From Gammaproteobacteria bacterium (lineage in GTDB: Bacteria > Pseudomonadota > Gammaproteobacteria > 21-64-14), in NCBI GenBank assembly GCA_027013145.1, contig JALUXX010000065.1, forward strand, positions 1 through 64,000: DNA of 64,000 nucleotides, in the 5' to 3' direction. The translations under genes and the position numbers were made by a program. This document shows, piece by piece, positions 3,617 through 11,456 of the stretch; position 1 is the stretch's first letter; every line of letters starts with the position of its first letter. A model generated the notes under the pieces. That model searched no databases. It was not told where the DNA came from and saw nothing but the letters and a program-made list of their open reading frames with translations.

Positions 3617-5350
3617 TCAGGCCGCGTAGCCCGGGTTGCCGCGGACGTTCTTGAGCTTCGGGACGTTGGGCCGTTCGACCCGGACGGTCTTGCGTTCGCG
3701 CAGGTACTCGTTGACGACGTCCCACACGGCCCGTCCCTTCAGCGGTTGCGAGACGTTGGCCCAGCCGGCGACGGTATATTTCTTCTTCGGGTCGATCGGC
3801 TTGCCGTCGAGTTCCATGTCGCTGATGCGGTGACCGATGTCCTGGGTCGGGTCCATGGTGTAGTGCAGTCCGCCGACCCGCACCATGTCGCCGCCCTGCT
3901 GATAGTACGGATCCTTGTTGAACAGGTTGTCGGCGATGTCTTCGAGGATCGCCTTGATGCGCGCGCCGGTGAAGGCGTTGCGGGTGACGACGGGGTAGGT
4001 GATCGCGGTCTGCGCCATGACGTCCTCGACGGTGATCGGCTGGCCCGGGAGGACCGAGGTCCCCCAGCGGAAACCGGGCGAGAGAGCGATCTGTGCGTCC
4101 ATGACCTTGCGCAGGGCGTCGCAGATCACCTGATCGAAGGTCCCGTTGAAATTCCCGCGTCGATAGAGAAGCCCTTCGGTGACGGCGAGCCTTTCGCCGA
4201 GCTTGGAGCGATACGGAGCGCGGACCTTGTCGATGTAGGCCTGCATCTCTCGGTCCGCGGGCAGCAGGTTGGAATACACCGGCAGATAGTGGAAGCGGTA
4301 GTCGCGCACACCGCCCTTGCGCACATCGAGGTCGAGCACGGTGATGACCTTGCCGTTGGAACCGGAGTTGATCACCAGAGTCGTGCCGCCGGCGTTCTTC
4401 ACCTCGATCGCCTTCGGCACCATGTCGTGCGTGTGCCCGCCCAGGATGGCGTCGAGGCCGCTCACGCGCGAGGCGAGTTTGAGATCTACATCCATGCCGT
4501 TGTGCGAGAGCAGCACGACGACCTGCGCTTTCTTGGCCCGGACCTCGTCGATAGTCTTCTGCAGGCGGCCCTGATCGATCCCGAAGCTCCAGTTGGGGAT
4601 CATGTAGGCCGGATTGGCGATCGGGGTGAACGGGAAGGCCTGGCCGATGACCGCGGTGGGTACGCCGTTGATCTCCCGGATCGTATAGGGCTTGAACACG
4701 GGATCGCCCCAGTCCTTGGTGACGACGTTCTGGGCGAGGAATTCGACCTTGCCGCCGAGTTCCTTTTTGATCAGTTCCATGACGCGCTCGGCCCCGTAGG
4801 TGAACTCCCAGTGGCCGGTCATCACGTCGACCCCCAGGCGGAGCTGCGCGCCGGCCATGTCCGCGCCGCGGGTCCAGAGCGAGGTCGCCGAGCCCTGCCA
4901 GGTGTCGCCGCCGTCGAGCAGCAGCGCGCCCGGACGCTGTGCGCGCAGCCGCTTCACCAGGGTGGCGATATGGGCGAACCCGCCGAGGGTTCCATAGCGA
5001 CGGGCGAGTTCGACGAAATCGAGGTAGGTGAATGCGTGCGCCCGCCGGGTCCCGGGCCGGACCCCGTAATATTCGAGGAAGTATTCGCCGACGAGATGGG
5101 GGGGATGCCCGCGCATCGACCCGACCCCGATGTTGATGCTCGGCTCGCGGAAGTAGACCGGGAGGAGCTGGGCGTGGCAGTCGGTCATGTGCAGCAGCGA
5201 GACGTTGCCGAAGCGCGGCAACTCGTAGAAATCGGACGGCCCGCGGCCCGCGGCGCGTACGGCGGCGTCGGCCGGACCGGAGCCGAGCGGCAGGCCGGCG
5301 GCCCCGGCGATGGCGAGCATTTGGAGGAACTCACGGCGTGACAGGTTCAT
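3617..5350 (-). CDS. soxB: SoxB, thiosulfohydrolase
   Basis: Periplasmic di-manganese hydrolase of the Sox pathway. It removes the terminal sulfone of SoxY-bound thiosulfate as sulfate. The protein has 577 residues, the usual family length. It opens with a twin-arginine signal (SRREFLQMLAIAGAAGLPLG), fitting cytoplasmic folding before export. Metallophosphoesterase motifs are in order: MTDCHAQL, GGDTWQGS, the SoxB-type GHWEFTYG (where 5'-nucleotidases have GNHEFD), SHNG and GGHTHD, followed by the C-terminal nucleotidase-like domain. It is the last gene of the sox run but is set apart from soxA by 174 bases that hold a strong intrinsic terminator. Its transcription therefore probably depends on read-through or on its own promoter. 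Confidence 0.97.
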   Translation of the reverse strand: MNLSRREFLQMLAIAGAAGLPLGSGPADAAVRAAGRGPSDFYELPRFGNVSLLHMTDCHAQLLPVYFREPSINIGVGSMRGHPPHLVGEYFLEYYGVRPGTRRAHAFTYLDFVELARRYGTLGGFAHIATLVKRLRAQRPGALLLDGGDTWQGSATSLWTRGADMAGAQLRLGVDVMTGHWEFTYGAERVMELIKKELGGKVEFLAQNVVTKDWGDPVFKPYTIREINGVPTAVIGQAFPFTPIANPAYMIPNWSFGIDQGRLQKTIDEVRAKKAQVVVLLSHNGMDVDLKLASRVSGLDAILGGHTHDMVPKAIEVKNAGGTTLVINSGSNGKVITVLDLDVRKGGVRDYRFHYLPVYSNLLPADREMQAYIDKVRAPYRSKLGERLAVTEGLLYRRGNFNGTFDQVICDALRKVMDAQIALSPGFRWGTSVLPGQPITVEDVMAQTAITYPVVTRNAFTGARIKAILEDIADNLFNKDPYYQQGGDMVRVGGLHYTMDPTQDIGHRISDMELDGKPIDPKKKYTVAGWANVSQPLKGRAVWDVVNEYLRERKTVRVERPNVPKLKNVRGNPGYAA

Positions 5351-5524: not shown

Positions 5525-6397
5525 TTACTGTCGGACGGTGGGACCGACCTCGGGCAGACCGTTGCTCATGTAGGTCAGGAAGTACTCGAGATCGCGGTAC
5601 TCGCGGCTCTGGAACGGGAACGGCTTGGCCCGCACCTGCTTGTTGCAGCCCCGGAAACGGCGCTGCAGCGTGCCGAGCGCGCCCCACTTGAGCCGGTACG
5701 TCGGCCAGTGGGTGGCCTGCCCCAGCATCGGGCTGAGCGTGTTGGCGCGGATAAGGCGTCCGGCGTTCTGTATGTGGCAACTCGCGCAACTGAAGTTCAA
5801 CTGCCCGCGGCGGGCGTAGTAGAACTCCTTGCCGCGTTCGTAGGCCTCGAGCGCCCGCGGATCATTCGCGGGGATCACCACGTGGATCTTCTTGCCCTTG
5901 GCGGTTTCGGCCATGTAGGCGAGGATGTCGGCGATCTTGCCCTTTCCGTAGGGGAGGGGTTTTTCGCCGTTCGCCTCGCGGCACAGGTTCAGTGCGAGAG
6001 CCAGCGTCACCACTTCGCCGCGCTTCGCATCCCAGCGCGGGTAGGTGTTGGCGATGCCGATGCCTCTATGGGGGAAGCAGTCGGCGTAGCTCCTGCCGTT
6101 CTTGAACTTGGTGTGGAAGAGCTTCTTCCCTGTGTCCAGGGCCGGCAGATAAGGCGGAAACACCATGATCTGCTCCCACTCCGCGCGCATCTGCGGGTTG
6201 ATCGCATAGACGCCGTTGACGTAGTCGTCGAGCTTGAGTTTCGGGAAGCGCGCCTCGTAGAAGCCGATGAGATGGATCCGGTCCTGTTCCGGCCCGGCAT
6301 GGGCTGGATAGGGCGCGAACCCTGCGGCCACACCGGCGGCCAGCACCGCCAGCGTCGCCGCGAAACCGCGAGATCCCTTGATGTTCGTCTGGCGCAT
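5525..6397 (-). CDS. soxA: SoxA, c-type cytochrome subunit of SoxXA
   Basis: Periplasmic subunit of the SoxAX cytochrome, which oxidatively joins thiosulfate to the SoxY cysteine. It has 290 residues with a Sec signal (residues 1-34, PAHA cleavage region). One haem motif is present, CASCH at 204-208, and Cys251 in RGCNKQ matches the cysteine ligand of the active haem. The site that binds a second haem in diheme SoxA is lost: it reads CFPH at 107, and Cys107 and Cys139 are placed to make the disulfide seen in monoheme SoxA. The start is ATG 6397 with GGAG seven bases upstream; an upstream in-frame start would add 29 residues overlapping soxZ. soxZ ends 29 bases before it. Confidence 0.95.
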   Translation of the reverse strand: MRQTNIKGSRGFAATLAVLAAGVAAGFAPYPAHAGPEQDRIHLIGFYEARFPKLKLDDYVNGVYAINPQMRAEWEQIMVFPPYLPALDTGKKLFHTKFKNGRSYADCFPHRGIGIANTYPRWDAKRGEVVTLALALNLCREANGEKPLPYGKGKIADILAYMAETAKGKKIHVVIPANDPRALEAYERGKEFYYARRGQLNFSCASCHIQNAGRLIRANTLSPMLGQATHWPTYRLKWGALGTLQRRFRGCNKQVRAKPFPFQSREYRDLEYFLTYMSNGLPEVGPTVRQ

Positions 6398-6426
6398 CGG
6401 GTTGCTCCGTTTGGAAGGTTGTCGAA

Positions 6427-6744
6427 TCACAGCTCGCTGAGCTTGCCCTGGCGGGTGTCGTGCTCGCCCTTGTTGTCCACCCAACTGATCTTCAGCACGT
6501 CGCTGGGCTTGGCGCCCTTTATCACGAAGGACATATAGGGGTTCTTGGAGATAGCGATACTCCAGTCGGCGGTGAGGATCGTCTTGCCGTTGAGGTCGCA
6601 GGTCACCGTTTTGATGAAGTGTGCCGGGATGGGTTTGCCCGTCTTTTTGTTCTTCCGCAGGCCGGTCTCCATCGGGTGTCTGATCAGCATCCGGACCTTG
6701 GTGGTCTCGGGTCCGACATTGGTCTTTACCAGAATCGTCGACAT
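6427..6744 (-). CDS. soxZ: SoxZ, sulfur-carrier scaffold subunit
   Basis: Small immunoglobulin-like protein of 105 residues that pairs with SoxY to form the periplasmic SoxYZ carrier. Typical SoxZ stretches are seen: KVRMLIRHPMETG near the start and ISKNPYMSF in the second half. It has no signal peptide of its own, as is usual for SoxZ, which is exported with SoxY through the Tat pathway. GAGGAACAG precedes the ATG at good distance. It sits 49 bases after soxY and 29 before soxA in the same run. Confidence 0.97.
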   Translation of the reverse strand: MSTILVKTNVGPETTKVRMLIRHPMETGLRKNKKTGKPIPAHFIKTVTCDLNGKTILTADWSIAISKNPYMSFVIKGAKPSDVLKISWVDNKGEHDTRQGKLSEL

Positions 6745-6793: not shown

Positions 6794-7261
6794 TCAGCCG
6801 CCGCAACCGCCGATGGTGACCTTGACCTTGCGCTTGGCGCTGTAGAGCTTGCCGTCGGACTTGACCACGGCGACGACGTCGGTCGTTTTGGCCATCTTCA
6901 CCCGCATCGAGAGCTTGGGCTCCACCCGGTCGGAAAGATGGTAGGTGGCCGCCATCGGGCGCGGGTTCTTTGCGACGAAGAGCGTGATCTGGGTGACGTT
7001 CGGCAGCGTCGTGGCGATGTTGATCGGGACCGAGCGCGCGTCCTGGGCGAGTGTGGGAAGCTCCGGAAAGTGGATCTTCCCGCTCTCGGCGATCGGCGTG
7101 CCGCCGAAGATATCCTTCTCCGCGGCGTCGAGCGACTTGGCGTCGAAGGCCTTGGCCGGCCAGGCCGCAAGCACCGCGCGGGGCACGAGCGTGCCGGCGA
7201 GAACGGCGCCGCCGGCGGTCAGCGCCCCTTTGAGAAACACCCTGCGTTTCATGTTAGTCAC
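6794..7261 (-). CDS. soxY: SoxY, sulfur-carrying subunit
   Basis: Carrier protein of the Sox cycle, 155 residues. Sulfur intermediates are bound to the cysteine of the extreme C-terminal GGCGG swinging arm, which is intact here. A Tat signal (KRRVFLKGALTAGG) precedes the mature domain, consistent with export as a complex with SoxZ. I take GTG at 7261 as the start because GGAGG lies ten bases upstream; an ATG three codons later (7252) is the alternative and would change only the leader. It lies between soxX and soxZ. Confidence 0.96.
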   Translation of the reverse strand: MTNMKRRVFLKGALTAGGAVLAGTLVPRAVLAAWPAKAFDAKSLDAAEKDIFGGTPIAESGKIHFPELPTLAQDARSVPINIATTLPNVTQITLFVAKNPRPMAATYHLSDRVEPKLSMRVKMAKTTDVVAVVKSDGKLYSAKRKVKVTIGGCGG

Positions 7262-7324
7262 GTCGGTCAGTCCTCCGAGTCGGGTCGTGTGGTTCGTGCG
7301 CGAGCGCGGCCGTCGGGACCGCGG

Positions 7325-7717
7325 TTACTGGGTCCAGATGTAGGCGGCGATCTCGTCGATCTCCTTGTTTGTCAGGATCCGGTTGCGCCCGAACGGCGGC
7401 ATCACGCTGTTCGGGTGGTTCGCGGTGGCGTCCCAGATCTGGGCGCGCAGCTTGGCGAAATCCGGGTAGCGCTTCTTGACGTGTACCAGCGGCGGGCCGA
7501 CGTTGCCCGGGTCCGTACCGTCGTCGATCTGGTGACAGGCGAGGCAGTTGCCCTTCTTACGGTTGAAGGCGAGCTTCTTGCCCGCGGCCAGCACCGCCGC
7601 CGAGGGATGGGTCCATTCCGCCATGGACCCCGCCCGCGCCGGTGCGGCCGTCAGCCCGCCGACCAGGATCAGGGCCGAGGCGGCCCCCGAGAGCGTGATT
7701 CCGATCGTCTTCTTCAT
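7325..7717 (-). CDS. soxX: SoxX, monoheme cytochrome c subunit of SoxXA
   Basis: Periplasmic electron-accepting subunit of SoxXA, 130 residues. A Sec signal ends near ARAG at residue 30. There is one haem motif, CLACH at 58-62, and the distal ligand is Met106 in SVMPPFG, in the usual place. The start at ATG 7717 gives a compact signal peptide; a longer frame would add ten residues. It is the first sox structural gene after the anti-sigma gene, 73 bases downstream of that gene's stop, which supports one transcript that begins with the sigma factor. Confidence 0.95.
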   Translation of the reverse strand: MKKTIGITLSGAASALILVGGLTAAPARAGSMAEWTHPSAAVLAAGKKLAFNRKKGNCLACHQIDDGTDPGNVGPPLVHVKKRYPDFAKLRAQIWDATANHPNSVMPPFGRNRILTNKEIDEIAAYIWTQ

Positions 7718-7790
7718 TCGAGTCGTTACCCCCGTATGGCTCATCACGAGTTGATCTCCGCGTCGCTTGTCGGCGGGGCGCCGGGCCCCC

Positions 7791-8549
7791 TCAGACCTTG
7801 ATGTAGATCCACCCTTCCTGCAGACGGGTGACGATCTCGTGGACCGCCGTCGGGCCCACCCGGGTGTCGGGAATCAGGTCCACGGCGTGCGGACCGAGTT
7901 CGCGTTTGAGTCTGGCGACCGTATTGCTGCAGGCGAGGAAGGTCAGGTTCGGGTACCTGCGCATCAGCTCCTCGACGCGCGCCTTGTAGGGCGAAACATT
8001 GGCGCGTAGCAGGTTCACGCCGCCCGCGTTCGTGACCACCTCCACCTGGAGCTGGTCGCGCGGGAACATGCCCATGAGCTCCTGCACCTCATTGAGGGCC
8101 ATCTCCATGCGCTTCGGGCTCGAGGAGGTGAGGTGGAGCAGGACGTGGCGCACGCCGTGCGCCGGCACCGGCGCACCGACGCGGGAGACGAGGAAGGAGC
8201 CGTCGTGCCGCGCGATGCGCGCAAGCGTCCCCTCGTCCAGCACGCCGGAGCCGCCCGCACCGGGGTGCAGCAGCCAGCCGAACGCCGCGCCCGTCAGGAG
8301 CAGCAGGACGGCGGCGACGCCGCGCAACAGGTGGCTGTGGCGCGGCGCCGGGCGCAGGCGCTTCGGCTTGGGGCAGTCCCGGTAGCCGAACTGGACCATG
8401 CTGCGCAGCCGGGTGAGTTCGCAGGCGCGCTCGGTCAGGTGCCGGTCGCGGTTGATCGCCTCGAAGACGTCGCCGCGCTCATCGGCCGCCAACTGGTCGT
8501 CGACGAAGGCGTTCAGCGTCTCGTCCGAGATCTTGTCGGGCTCATTCAT
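7791..8549 (-). CDS. Membrane anti-sigma factor fused to a periplasmic DsrE-like domain
   Basis: A 252-residue protein in three parts. Residues 1-60 (ISDETLNAFVDDQLAADERGDV) look like the cytoplasmic N-terminal domain of ECF anti-sigma factors. Residues 74-94 are one membrane helix after a basic stretch, so the rest should face the periplasm. Residues about 133-252 form a DsrE/DsrF-like sulfur-relay fold with a single cysteine, Cys207, in FLACSNT, and an EGWIYIKV end. The secreted protein at 9450-9899 shares the AC-x-NT motif and the ending. The gene starts 26 bases after the sigma-factor stop, and soxX follows. I infer that the DsrE half senses a periplasmic sulfur species and controls release of the sigma factor. 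The anti-sigma part is called from pattern and position; the sulfur ligand is unproven. Confidence 0.8.
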   Translation of the reverse strand: MNEPDKISDETLNAFVDDQLAADERGDVFEAINRDRHLTERACELTRLRSMVQFGYRDCPKPKRLRPAPRHSHLLRGVAAVLLLLTGAAFGWLLHPGAGGSGVLDEGTLARIARHDGSFLVSRVGAPVPAHGVRHVLLHLTSSSPKRMEMALNEVQELMGMFPRDQLQVEVVTNAGGVNLLRANVSPYKARVEELMRRYPNLTFLACSNTVARLKRELGPHAVDLIPDTRVGPTAVHEIVTRLQEGWIYIKV

Positions 8550-8575
8550 CTGCGTATCCCTCGACCAAAAACGTC

Positions 8576-9133
8576 TCAGCGTACGCTCCGTAAGGGCACC
8601 GCCCGCTCCGCCGCCCGGGCGGTCTCCTCGAGATCGAGGAGGTGTCGCTTGAGGGCCTTGCGCGCGCGCGACAGGCGGCTCATCACGGTCCCGATCGGGC
8701 AGTCGACGATCTCCGCGACCTCGATGTACGAGAATCCCTCGAGGTCGACCAGCGTCAGCACCTGCCGCTGCGCCAGCGGCAACCGGCCCACGGCCGCCCG
8801 CACCCGCGTGACGACCTCGTGCTGGCCGTGTTCGTGTTCCGGTGTATCCTCGTGGCAGTAGACGATCTCGTCCACGTCGACGGTCGGGCGCGCGCGCCGG
8901 AAATGATCGCGCCAGCAGTTGGCCAGGATGCTGAACAACCATGTATTCATGGCCTTGGGATCGCGCAACTGGCTGCCGTTTCGCAGCGCCTTCGCCATTG
9001 TCTCCTGTACCAGGTCGTCCGACAGGTGCGGATCGTGGCTCCATGCATACGCGAGACGGTACAGGCGTTCGCGACTCGCCTCCAGCCGCTCCCGGAATTC
9101 CCGCGAGCGGCAGAACAGCGTGAGAATGCTCAT
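8576..9133 (-). CDS. ECF-type RNA polymerase sigma factor
   Basis: Group 4 sigma factor of 185 residues. Region 2 (about 20-90) contains RLAYAWSHDPHLSDDLVQETMAKAL and NTWLFSILANCWRDHFRR, the helices that bind core polymerase and the -10 element. Region 4 (about 120-170) has LPLAQRQVLTLVDLEGFSYIEVAEI with the GTVMSRLSRARKAL recognition helix. The chosen start, ATG 9133, has AGGAGG five bases upstream; an in-frame start eight codons earlier is weaker. It is the first gene of the run leading into soxXYZAB and is followed by its likely anti-sigma factor, so it probably drives the sox operon and its own gene. The sigma call is firm; the target set is inferred. Confidence 0.93.
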   Translation of the reverse strand: MSILTLFCRSREFRERLEASRERLYRLAYAWSHDPHLSDDLVQETMAKALRNGSQLRDPKAMNTWLFSILANCWRDHFRRARPTVDVDEIVYCHEDTPEHEHGQHEVVTRVRAAVGRLPLAQRQVLTLVDLEGFSYIEVAEIVDCPIGTVMSRLSRARKALKRHLLDLEETARAAERAVPLRSVR

Positions 9134-9449
9134 CGACCCCTCCTCAGCTCCACTCACGAAGACGCGATGACGGCGGGGCTTATTCCCGGCTCTGGTTTGA
9201 ACATCGCATCGTGTTTGCTCAGGATAGCCGAAATTGCAGTGCGTACGACACCCCGGACAAACTTAAGAATATTAGCGAGTGCTTATTTAAAAGGCGTCGT
9301 TCGCGCCGATGAAATAAAACGCGGGCCGTCGGCGTCTCCCCCCACCGAAGCCCCGCAGTCCCACGCGGTCATCCGCCCGCTGCGGGGGGACATATAGATA
9401 GAGAAGACGACCCAATATCGGCCGGGTGCCGAATCCAGTGGAGGATGCG
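9134..9449. promoter_or_regulatory. Divergent control region between the sox-sigma operon and the secreted DsrE gene
   Basis: This 316-base gap carries the starts of both divergent units. It includes an AT-rich patch (about 9260-9320) unusual for this GC-rich DNA, a likely place for promoters or regulator binding. On the minus strand GGAATAA (9186-9180), a 16-base spacer and GTC (9163-9161) resemble an ECF-type promoter, about 28 bases before the sigma start. I do not see the same pair in front of the divergent gene. No gene is visible in this gap. Confidence 0.4.
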
Positions 9450-9899
9450 ATGCGTAAACCTTATCTCCTTGCGGTCCTTTGGGCGGGCGCGCTGGCGCTG
9501 TTGCTCGCCGCGCCGGTCACGCGTGCGGACGAGGCCAAGCCCTTCGCGGTCGCCAAGTACGCGCTGCAGTTGAGCAGCGGCGGGGCCCCGGCGCAGACGC
9601 TGGTGCTCAACGTCGCCAGCAATCTGATCAAACACTACGGCCCGGACCGGGTGGAGATCGAGATCGTCGCCTTCGGTCCGGGGCTGCGGCTGCTGCTCGC
9701 CAACAACGTCAACAAGGGGCGGATCGCGGGGCTGGCGTCGTCGGGCGTGCGCTTCAGCGCCTGCGACAACACCTACGCGAAGTTCACCAAGAAGCTGGGG
9801 TATCCGCCCAAGCTGAACCCGCACGCGGTCCACGTCTCGGCGGGCGTCGTGCGCCTGTACGAGCTGGCCCACGAGGGCTATACCATCGTCAAGCCGTAG
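9450..9899 (+). CDS. Secreted DsrE-like sulfur-relay protein
   Basis: A 149-residue protein with a clear Sec signal (residues 1-26, VTRADEA cleavage region) and a DsrE/DsrF-like mature domain. One cysteine remains after the signal, Cys105 in FSACDNTYAKF. It is related to the C-terminal half of the anti-sigma protein encoded divergently: both have AC-x-NT, a following HAV segment and an EG-x-(Y/I)-x-(I/V)-(V/K)-K type ending. Start ATG 9450 has GGAGG seven bases before it. DsrE-family proteins usually move sulfur bound to a cysteine in the cytoplasm; a periplasmic member beside sox could bind sulfane sulfur there and signal to, or compete with, the anti-sigma sensor. That role is inference. 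Confidence 0.82.
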   Translation: MRKPYLLAVLWAGALALLLAAPVTRADEAKPFAVAKYALQLSSGGAPAQTLVLNVASNLIKHYGPDRVEIEIVAFGPGLRLLLANNVNKGRIAGLASSGVRFSACDNTYAKFTKKLGYPPKLNPHAVHVSAGVVRLYELAHEGYTIVKP

Positions 9900-10001
9900 G
9901 ACCGGACGTGTGCGTTACCGGTCGAAAATGATCCGAATAAACCCGGGGGTCGTTGACCCGCTTCGTGGAAACACTCGATCGAGGTTGAGGAGGCGAGAAT
10001 T

Positions 10002-11456
10002 ATGAAACGCAAGATGCGTCGCATCGCGGTGGCGCTGTCCCTGGCCGGAGCCGCGTCGCTGAGCCTGCCGGCCCACGCGACCAACTGGCTCAAGCTGCAG
10101 GGCACGCAGCCCTCGGGCGTCACGCCCCGGGCGAAGTTCTGGGGCTTCATCCAGCCGGGCTACGCCTGGACACCGGGGAGCGAGCTGTCGGGGCTCAAGG
10201 GTCCCGCAGCGGTGCTCAACGGGACGCGGCCGAATTTCAACAACATCGGCCCGGACCAGACGTCGAGCAACACCTTTTCCATGCGGCGTGCACGGATCGG
10301 GGTGCGCGGCGCGGCCACGCCGCTGAGCAACGACATCGACTACTTCTTCCTGGCCGAGTTCGGCAACAACGCCCTGAGCAGCTCGGTGGGCTACCACCCG
10401 GTGATCACCGACGCCTCGGTGACCTTCAACCAGCTCAAGAAGTTCGTGCGCTTCCGCCTCGGGCTGTTCAAGATGCCTGGCGACTCGGAGGAGGGGCTCC
10501 AGGGCATCCCGATGCTGCCGTACGTGAACTTCAGCAACGTGGGCAACCAGCTCATGCTGGAGCGGTTCGTGAAGGCGGCCGGCGGCAGTTGCTGGAATCC
10601 CAACAACAATGCCCTGACCGACGGCGCGGTCGGCAGCAATGCCGTCTGTTCCGGGCCCGGACCCGGCCGGAACGGCATCCCGGTGGCGACGGACGGCGTG
10701 TACGCGACGACCACGGGCCTGAACGCTTACCGCGACATGGGTCTGATGGCCTTCAACTGGTTCCGATTCGGGCCGTGGGAGTACACCTACGGCGTGATGG
10801 TCGGCAACGGCGGCCAGATCGACCGGCTCGACTCGAACAACAGCAAGGACATCAATGGCCGGCTGCAGGTCTCCTATATCTTTAACAACACGCACGGCCC
10901 GTTCCGCAGTGACATCACCGCCCTGATCTGGGGCCAGAACGGGGACCGCTCCTTCAACGGTTCATCGTATCAGCGGACGCGGATGGGTTTCGGCGTCTAC
11001 GGGCGCTACGGCTTCATGCGTCCGGGGGCGATCCGGGCGGCGGCCGAGTACATGTTCGGCAAGGGCATGATTTTTGCCGGCTCGCCGTTCGCGAGCGTCG
11101 ACGGCACCGCGAGCAAGCAGCCGGTGACGATGTACCCGGGCTACAACAACGGCGGGCGCGGGTTCTACATCGAGAGCGGGGTCTTCGTCACGCACCACCT
11201 GCAGCTCGAGTTCCGCTACGACAAGTACGACCGGCTGTTCAATGACCCGCAGAACGAGCGGATCTTCAACAGCTATACCTTCGGGGCGCAGTACTTCTTC
11301 ACACCCAAGGCCCGGTTGACGTTCAACTACGCCATCAACACCCTGGATGTGCAGAACCCCGGGGCATTCACGAATGCCGTGCAGTTGAGCAACGCGGAGG
11401 CGGTGGCGAACACCTTCGACAACCGCCTGGACCTGCAGATGACGATCATCTTCTGA
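10002..11456 (+). CDS. Outer-membrane porin (phosphate-selective porin O/P type)
   Basis: A 484-residue beta-barrel protein with a Sec signal (residues 1-25, LPAHA) and a C-terminal phenylalanine, as in outer-membrane porins. The SMRRARIGVRG stretch and the following DYFFLAEFG strand are typical of the porin O/P superfamily. Alternating hydrophobic strands and aromatic residues continue to the end (DLQMTIIF). GAGGAGG precedes ATG 10002. It follows the secreted DsrE gene by 102 bases on the same strand and ends in a good terminator, so the two probably form one unit. Its place suggests uptake of an anion such as thiosulfate or sulfate; this is inferred from context only. Confidence 0.85.
   Translation: MKRKMRRIAVALSLAGAASLSLPAHATNWLKLQGTQPSGVTPRAKFWGFIQPGYAWTPGSELSGLKGPAAVLNGTRPNFNNIGPDQTSSNTFSMRRARIGVRGAATPLSNDIDYFFLAEFGNNALSSSVGYHPVITDASVTFNQLKKFVRFRLGLFKMPGDSEEGLQGIPMLPYVNFSNVGNQLMLERFVKAAGGSCWNPNNNALTDGAVGSNAVCSGPGPGRNGIPVATDGVYATTTGLNAYRDMGLMAFNWFRFGPWEYTYGVMVGNGGQIDRLDSNNSKDINGRLQVSYIFNNTHGPFRSDITALIWGQNGDRSFNGSSYQRTRMGFGVYGRYGFMRPGAIRAAAEYMFGKGMIFAGSPFASVDGTASKQPVTMYPGYNNGGRGFYIESGVFVTHHLQLEFRYDKYDRLFNDPQNERIFNSYTFGAQYFFTPKARLTFNYAINTLDVQNPGAFTNAVQLSNAEAVANTFDNRLDLQMTIIF

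Follow-up and report, generated by a model that had tools for sequence, protein, structure and literature searches.

The window, that is the whole stretch of 64,000 nucleotides that was analysed, carries a gene for an ECF sigma factor, followed after a gap of 26 nt by an anti-sigma factor gene and then by soxX, soxY, soxZ, soxA and soxB, all on the minus strand, as the coordinates and gene order of a preliminary description had correctly stated. A secreted DsrE-like protein and a porin are encoded divergently. The features of the locus are as follows.

3617..5350, minus strand: soxB (TIGR04486, 880 bits)
5525..6484, minus strand: soxA (TIGR04484 above cut-off; the end of the open reading frame overlaps soxZ and the real start may be further in)
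6427..6744, minus strand: soxZ (TIGR04490 above cut-off)
6794..7261, minus strand: soxY (TIGR04488 above cut-off)
7325..7717, minus strand: soxX (start ATG at 7717; TIGR04485 above cut-off)
7791..8549, minus strand: anti-sigma factor of 252 aa with one helix and a DsrE-fold outer domain (residues 1-70, anti-sigma domain; 73-93, transmembrane (TM) helix; ~134-251, DsrE)
8576..9133, minus strand: ECF sigma factor of 185 aa (PF04542, Sigma70_r2, and PF08281, Sigma70_r4_2, above cut-off; 85% identity to the G001 orthologue)
9161..9186, minus strand: predicted ECF-type promoter GGAATAA-N15-CGTC (agrees exactly with the family motif and lies 27 nt upstream of the sigma ATG; kept in G001)
9311..9336, plus strand: one-mismatch copy of the motif, GAAATAA-N15-CGTC, preceding the divergent secreted DsrE gene (the G001 copy, L021, has 14-nt spacing)
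9450..9899, plus strand: secreted DsrE-like protein with a signal peptide and a cysteine in FSACDNT, of the same domain family as the outer domain of the anti-sigma factor
10002..11456, plus strand: PF07396 outer-membrane porin, encoded after the secreted DsrE gene (about 30 further loci show this order)

Pfam detected regions 2 and 4 as the only sigma-70 content of the sigma protein, and SoxX, SoxY, SoxZ, SoxA and SoxB each passed the NCBIfam curated cut-off. The secreted DsrE protein was related to the anti-sigma factor of the window (BLASTP, E 6e-10) and, by hhalign, to the alignment of the anti-sigma-DsrE family (E 1e-12). The same block is present in the metagenome-assembled genome BMS3Bbin13 (G001), with 74-85% protein identity. 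The divergent secreted DsrE and PF07396 porin genes (9450-11456), which the preliminary description had left aside, show the promoter type of the pair, and such genes are frequent neighbours of these pairs elsewhere. In simple scans, positions 7300-9600 showed no sigma-70-like promoter, and no terminator was found to separate soxX from the anti-sigma gene. The sox operon of the window has no motif of its own and would rely on read-through from the sigma promoter; the simplest reading is that sigma-antisigma-soxXYZAB form one transcript initiated at the 9161-9186 promoter.

An anti-sigma factor with a DsrE outer domain

A single-sequence scan of the anti-sigma protein drew no match from Pfam or NCBIfam, which made it necessary to work with a family profile, taken from an alignment of 82 full-length relatives of the protein. 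Compared with DsrE-like structures, the outer domain in this profile matched MTH1491 (1l1s, E 1.1e-22) and ST0148 (2pd2, E 3.9e-13), and Cys207, which lies in the motif ACSNT, was aligned with the cysteine of MTH1491, where the motif is also ACSNT. The AlphaFold model of the protein (mean pLDDT 86.7) gave with Foldseek a target-normalised TM-score of 0.90 to 1l1s and of 0.66 to the DsrE subunit of DsrEFH (2hy5_A). Profile search and structure prediction confirm that the outer domain, which the preliminary description had called DsrE-like from the letters alone, is a DsrE fold with a cysteine at the DsrE cysteine position. PF02635 was found in 27 of the 82 members of the fusion family, the window protein taken alone being under Pfam detection. 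Identity of most of the 82 fusions to the window protein is 25-42%, and D17, C207 and W247 are invariant in all of them. Cys207, which had been singled out at the outset, is also the sole outer cysteine of the window anti-sigma factor.

DsrE is a sulfur-carrier fold, and DsrE proteins form oligomers. They had been described beforehand as normally cytoplasmic, a statement which proved incomplete: among 49 sampled relatives of the neighbouring secreted DsrE protein, 48 have a signal-peptide-like N-terminus, and the cysteine is invariant in the 49.

Residues 1-70 form three helices. Sixteen of the 17 listed fold matches of this N-terminal domain in the PDB were anti-sigma domains (RskA, ChrR, RslA, MucA, DdvA), each match being weak (E 2-10), and the best two sequence matches in the PDB were entries of MucA and RseA_N (E ~0.03). 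When 73 N-termini of the family were searched at E < 0.05, PF13490 was recovered in 45 and RseA_N in 21. A hydrophobic helix at about 73-93 of the window protein is rich in K/R on its N side; by simple hydropathy a TM helix is present in 80 of the 82 fusions, and in 78 of the 82 its N side has the larger number of K/R residues. This distribution of charges indicates an N-in, C-out orientation with the DsrE domain outside the membrane. RseA, MucA and RskA each have one TM helix. The N-terminal region is thereby assigned as a cytoplasmic anti-sigma domain, which is predicted to bind and inhibit the sigma factor. The preliminary picture of a one-helix protein with an anti-sigma-like N-terminus and an external DsrE domain was thus borne out by computation.

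Distribution of the fusion

Full-length fusions were counted in an even draw of 369 gammaproteobacterial genomes and were present in 63 of them, belonging to 39 families, which rules out the fusion as an oddity of one genome. SoxB was found in 62 of the 63 fusion genomes versus 86 of the 306 others (Fisher p 8e-28, phylogeny not corrected for), where one counted SoxB (G100) is a partial gene under cut-off and the non-fusion controls may hide fragmented fusions. No full-length fusion was found outside Gammaproteobacteria in a phylum draw of 398 genomes, and no relative of the window anti-sigma protein in viral contigs. A single-sequence scan of genome contigs returned one orthologue (BMS3Bbin13) and one distant match.

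An ECF sigma gene lies directly upstream of the fusion at nearly every locus. Among 79 fusion loci there are 35 cases in which a divergent secreted DsrE gene adjoins the pair, and in most of them a PF07396-type porin gene comes next; for about half of the pairs no secreted DsrE gene was detected within the sampled flank. Several of the sampled genomes are fragmented, and contig ends clip some neighbourhoods. Fusion genomes frequently harbour several paralogous pairs. The genome of the window itself has a second sigma/anti-sigma-DsrE pair (G000:C11:321080-322490; L017, 7060-8490), away from sox and with a CATC-type promoter. Two tandem pairs with an additional DsrE domain gene were seen at L061 and L063. 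At L073, L109 and L112, genes for SoxB-like 5'-nucleotidases (24-26% identity to SoxB) are divergent from the pair, and exact motif copies face genes of this kind in G095 (C6:4364-4388) and G100 (C153:1430-1455).

The pair had been placed at the head of a sox operon. This holds in the window, but not as a general trait, since sox genes lie beside the pair only in the genus of the window and in one other lineage, G167. In G167, an independent lineage, soxXYZAB, a secreted DsrE gene, the pair and a second secreted DsrE gene with a porin gene occupy one 10-kb block (L114, 5595-15032). The fusion as a speciality of sox operons was ruled out, as most pairs are not beside sox. Because sox linkage is rare, we take the sigma/anti-sigma-DsrE pair together with its promoter, and not a position within a sox operon, as what defines the system.

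A shared promoter motif and distant sox genes

The motif GGAATAA-N14/15-CGTC was present upstream of the sigma genes as an exact copy in 36 of 81 cases and with at most one mismatch in 63 of 81, against 0 and 0.6 in shuffled sequences. Before the divergent secreted DsrE genes it was exact in 17 of 35 and within one mismatch in 29 of 35 (shuffles, 0.2). Its extended form is GGAATAA(A/T)-N-CGTCT(A/T)A. This conservation points to a predicted ECF-type, autoregulated promoter before the sigma gene. Shuffles, the backward pattern and genome-wide counts ruled out the motif as a general promoter word. The raw genome-wide excess across all fusion genomes was only about two-fold (215 versus 101), and lone matches lacking a sensible downstream gene were therefore not counted as targets. 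A YeeE/YedE sulfur transporter gene (PF04143) has the motif upstream, exact in G083 (C1:2299798, L232) and with one change in the window genome G000 (C34:38194, L138). The motif was also seen before a gene for a PhnD-like periplasmic binding protein (PF12974) in G000 (C11:99577, L135) and G083 (C1:140126, L203).

Adjacency to sox in one genus could be an accident, and sox promoters distant from the pair were for this reason the main test of the wiring. In 40 fusion genomes with sox apart from the pair, 400 bp upstream of the genes were scanned with up to one mismatch allowed. The motif was found before 8 of 19 soxX and 12 of 40 soxB genes (14 of the 40 genomes), whereas shuffles gave 0.1 for each gene and the backward pattern gave 0. 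In SoxB genomes without a full-length fusion, used as controls, the motif occurred at soxX in 2 of 20; one of these two assemblies is fragmented and belongs to a family in which fusions occur. The motif was absent before soxX or soxB in the other 26 fusion genomes, several of whose contigs end early, so that control of sox is not universal in the fusion family; the regulon may vary by lineage or paralogue, or the site may have been cut off or have drifted from the consensus.

Two genomes allow the sox sites to be assigned to one type of pair. In G081 (complete, 2.9 Mb) and in G205 the exact motif occurs three times per genome, before the sigma gene, soxX and soxB. The promoters of the paralogous pairs of these genomes carry CATC, not CGTC, and hence the sox sites fit the sigma factor of the window type. 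When the pairs were placed in a tree, almost all genomes in the window's clade had the motif at sox, with G111 as the exception. The motif was likewise at sox in another clade, made up of G083, G310 and G207. Taken together, the shared motif, the distant sox promoters and the co-occurrence with SoxB speak for the wiring initially proposed, in which the sigma factor sets sox transcription, and comparative genomics gives good support to regulation of sox by this factor.

Proposed sulfur sensing and relation to known systems

The domain identities, the topology, the invariant residues, the shared promoter and the co-occurrence with sox, all established from sequence, are the ground on which the function of the pair can be considered. 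We think it probable that the pair acts as a trans-membrane switch dedicated to sulfur, in which the sequestered sigma factor would be released when Cys207 receives sulfur, leading to transcription from the motif promoters, including those of sox. As long as no suitable sulfur compound is present outside, the anti-sigma factor would, through its N-terminal domain, keep its ECF partner at the inner membrane; both this sequestration and the release by a signal are what anti-sigma biology would lead one to expect. A periplasmic sulfur species, most likely sulfane sulfur, would arrive directly or via the secreted DsrE partner and would be received by the DsrE domain on its single outer cysteine, Cys207, a role suggested by the DsrE fold. 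This arrangement is compatible with Cys207 as the point at which periplasmic sulfane sulfur would be sensed, and thiosulfate and sulfite are candidate ligands beside sulfane sulfur. Receipt of sulfur would then alter or destabilise the anti-sigma factor, and the sigma factor would be freed, by proteolysis or by a conformational change. The freed sigma factor is expected, from the distribution of the motif, to initiate at GGAATAA-N14/15-CGTC in front of its own operon (in the window, sigma-antisigma-soxXYZAB) and of the secreted DsrE-porin operon, the YeeE-type sulfur transporter being a probable further target. In related genomes, where soxX and soxB have separate promoters, the same sigma type would act on these in trans. 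The secreted DsrE partner might serve in sulfur delivery or in feedback. A broader view, which we hold tentatively and at slightly less than even confidence, is that of a widespread gammaproteobacterial family in which a periplasmic DsrE domain would be a persulfide (sulfane-sulfur) receptor and one type of ECF promoter would govern sox, a secreted DsrE carrier with its porin, and sulfur import.

The signal may instead be a protein contact, a sulfur-carrying secreted DsrE protein (or SoxYZ) docking on the DsrE domain of the anti-sigma factor, which would be a mere receiving surface. The two proteins belong to the same domain family, with the same invariant cysteine, a shared promoter and divergent genes, and the formation of oligomers by DsrE proteins would suit such docking. 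However, it would have to account for the roughly one half of pairs with no secreted DsrE gene detected in the sampled flank, and we regard this explanation as somewhat unlikely. A lone periplasmic cysteine can also react with sulfite, peroxide or thiols, as known from general chemistry, and the sensor could thus read sulfite or another oxidised product, or the general redox state, its DsrE cysteine undergoing oxidation or disulfide bonding instead of taking up sulfane sulfur. A response to sulfite, by a mechanism reported as unknown, is documented for the ECF26 pairs RpoE4 and SigE (PMC6527743, PMC3511301); yet the outer domain here has the fold of a sulfur carrier, and the motif stands in front of thiosulfate-oxidation genes, which makes such a sensor rather improbable.

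That the pair mainly drives the divergent secreted DsrE-porin operon, for periplasmic sulfur handling or uptake, and itself, with the sox genes of the window lying downstream by chance, would agree with the neighbourhoods: a secreted DsrE gene is both divergent and adjacent in 35 cases among the 79 loci and has the motif in 29 of 35, while sox is linked only in the window genus and G167. The motif before distant soxX and soxB genes, which in two genomes are the sole exact copies besides that of the sigma gene, makes this quite unlikely. An ordinary RseA-type envelope-stress pair, with the DsrE fold reused as a structural outer domain devoid of any sulfur role, is highly improbable, for although the anti-sigma domain is similar to the MucA/RseA and ChrR types, Cys207 is invariant in 82 sequences, the fusion is nearly exclusive to SoxB genomes and motif promoters are found at sox.

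If the trans-membrane sulfur switch that we favour is correct, sulfur would be read where Sox works, which would explain how regulators in these bacteria sense external sulfur. As the sensor appears to serve a single sigma factor whose promoter signature is clear, external sulfur sensing becomes testable. With the fusion present in 39 family-level gammaproteobacterial groups, nearly all Sox carriers, this may be a main route of sox control there.

A literature search, which covered open-access papers, yielded no account of anti-sigma factors fused to DsrE, and the system was consequently classed as a widely distributed ECF/anti-sigma pair whose sensor domain is new and whose predicted regulon concerns sulfur. 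There are precedents for ECF control of sox, in Arcobacter, and for sulfite-responsive pairs, in ECF26; the new element is the DsrE sensor domain on an anti-sigma factor. As for its two halves, the outer domain shares its fold and the position of its cysteine with MTH1491/ST0148 and DsrE/TusD, which are however stand-alone soluble proteins without an anti-sigma domain, and the short helical N-terminal anti-sigma domain is shared with RseA/MucA and ChrR/RskA/RslA, whose sensor domains and signals differ.

In Arcobacter butzleri, the ECF factors sigma2, with anti-sigma2, and sigma7 alter transcription of soxCDXYZAB (PMC3445524). The likeness lies in ECF sigma factors with linked anti-sigma genes that affect sox, but no DsrE is mentioned there, sox does not adjoin the pair, the response extends to nap and many further genes, and the signal is unknown, oxygen having been suggested, in a bacterium of a different phylum (PMC3445524). 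The ECF26 pairs of S. meliloti (RpoE4) and Starkeya novella (SigE) are triggered by sulfite, and the mechanism of sensing was reported as unknown (PMC3511301, PMC6527743). They too are ECF/anti-sigma pairs beside sulfur-oxidation genes and activated by a sulfur compound, but their target is the sulfite oxidase sorT/sorA, their trigger sulfite and their hosts alphaproteobacteria (PMC3511301, PMC6527743). Compared by description, ECF26 anti-sigma factors are mostly of the COG5662 type, DsrE not being described in the ECF26 papers, whereas the outer domain in the window is DsrE.

The best-studied sox regulators are cytoplasmic repressors, whereas here a sensor domain with a sulfur-carrier fold is predicted to face the periplasm. 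SoxR and sHdrR are ArsR-type DNA-binding repressors of this kind, responsive to sulfane sulfur, and a YeeE-like SoxT relays the signal (PMC10451225, PMC11582611); the sensing of external sulfur by sulfur oxidisers has been called poorly understood (PMC11582611). The SoxR/sHdrR circuits with SoxT1B resemble the system described here in their sulfane-sulfur-responsive control of sox and in their YeeE-like transporter (PMC10451225, PMC11582611). They differ in that SoxR and sHdrR depend on a membrane protein for information on external sulfur, whereas in the window the domain predicted to be the sensor lies beyond the membrane itself.
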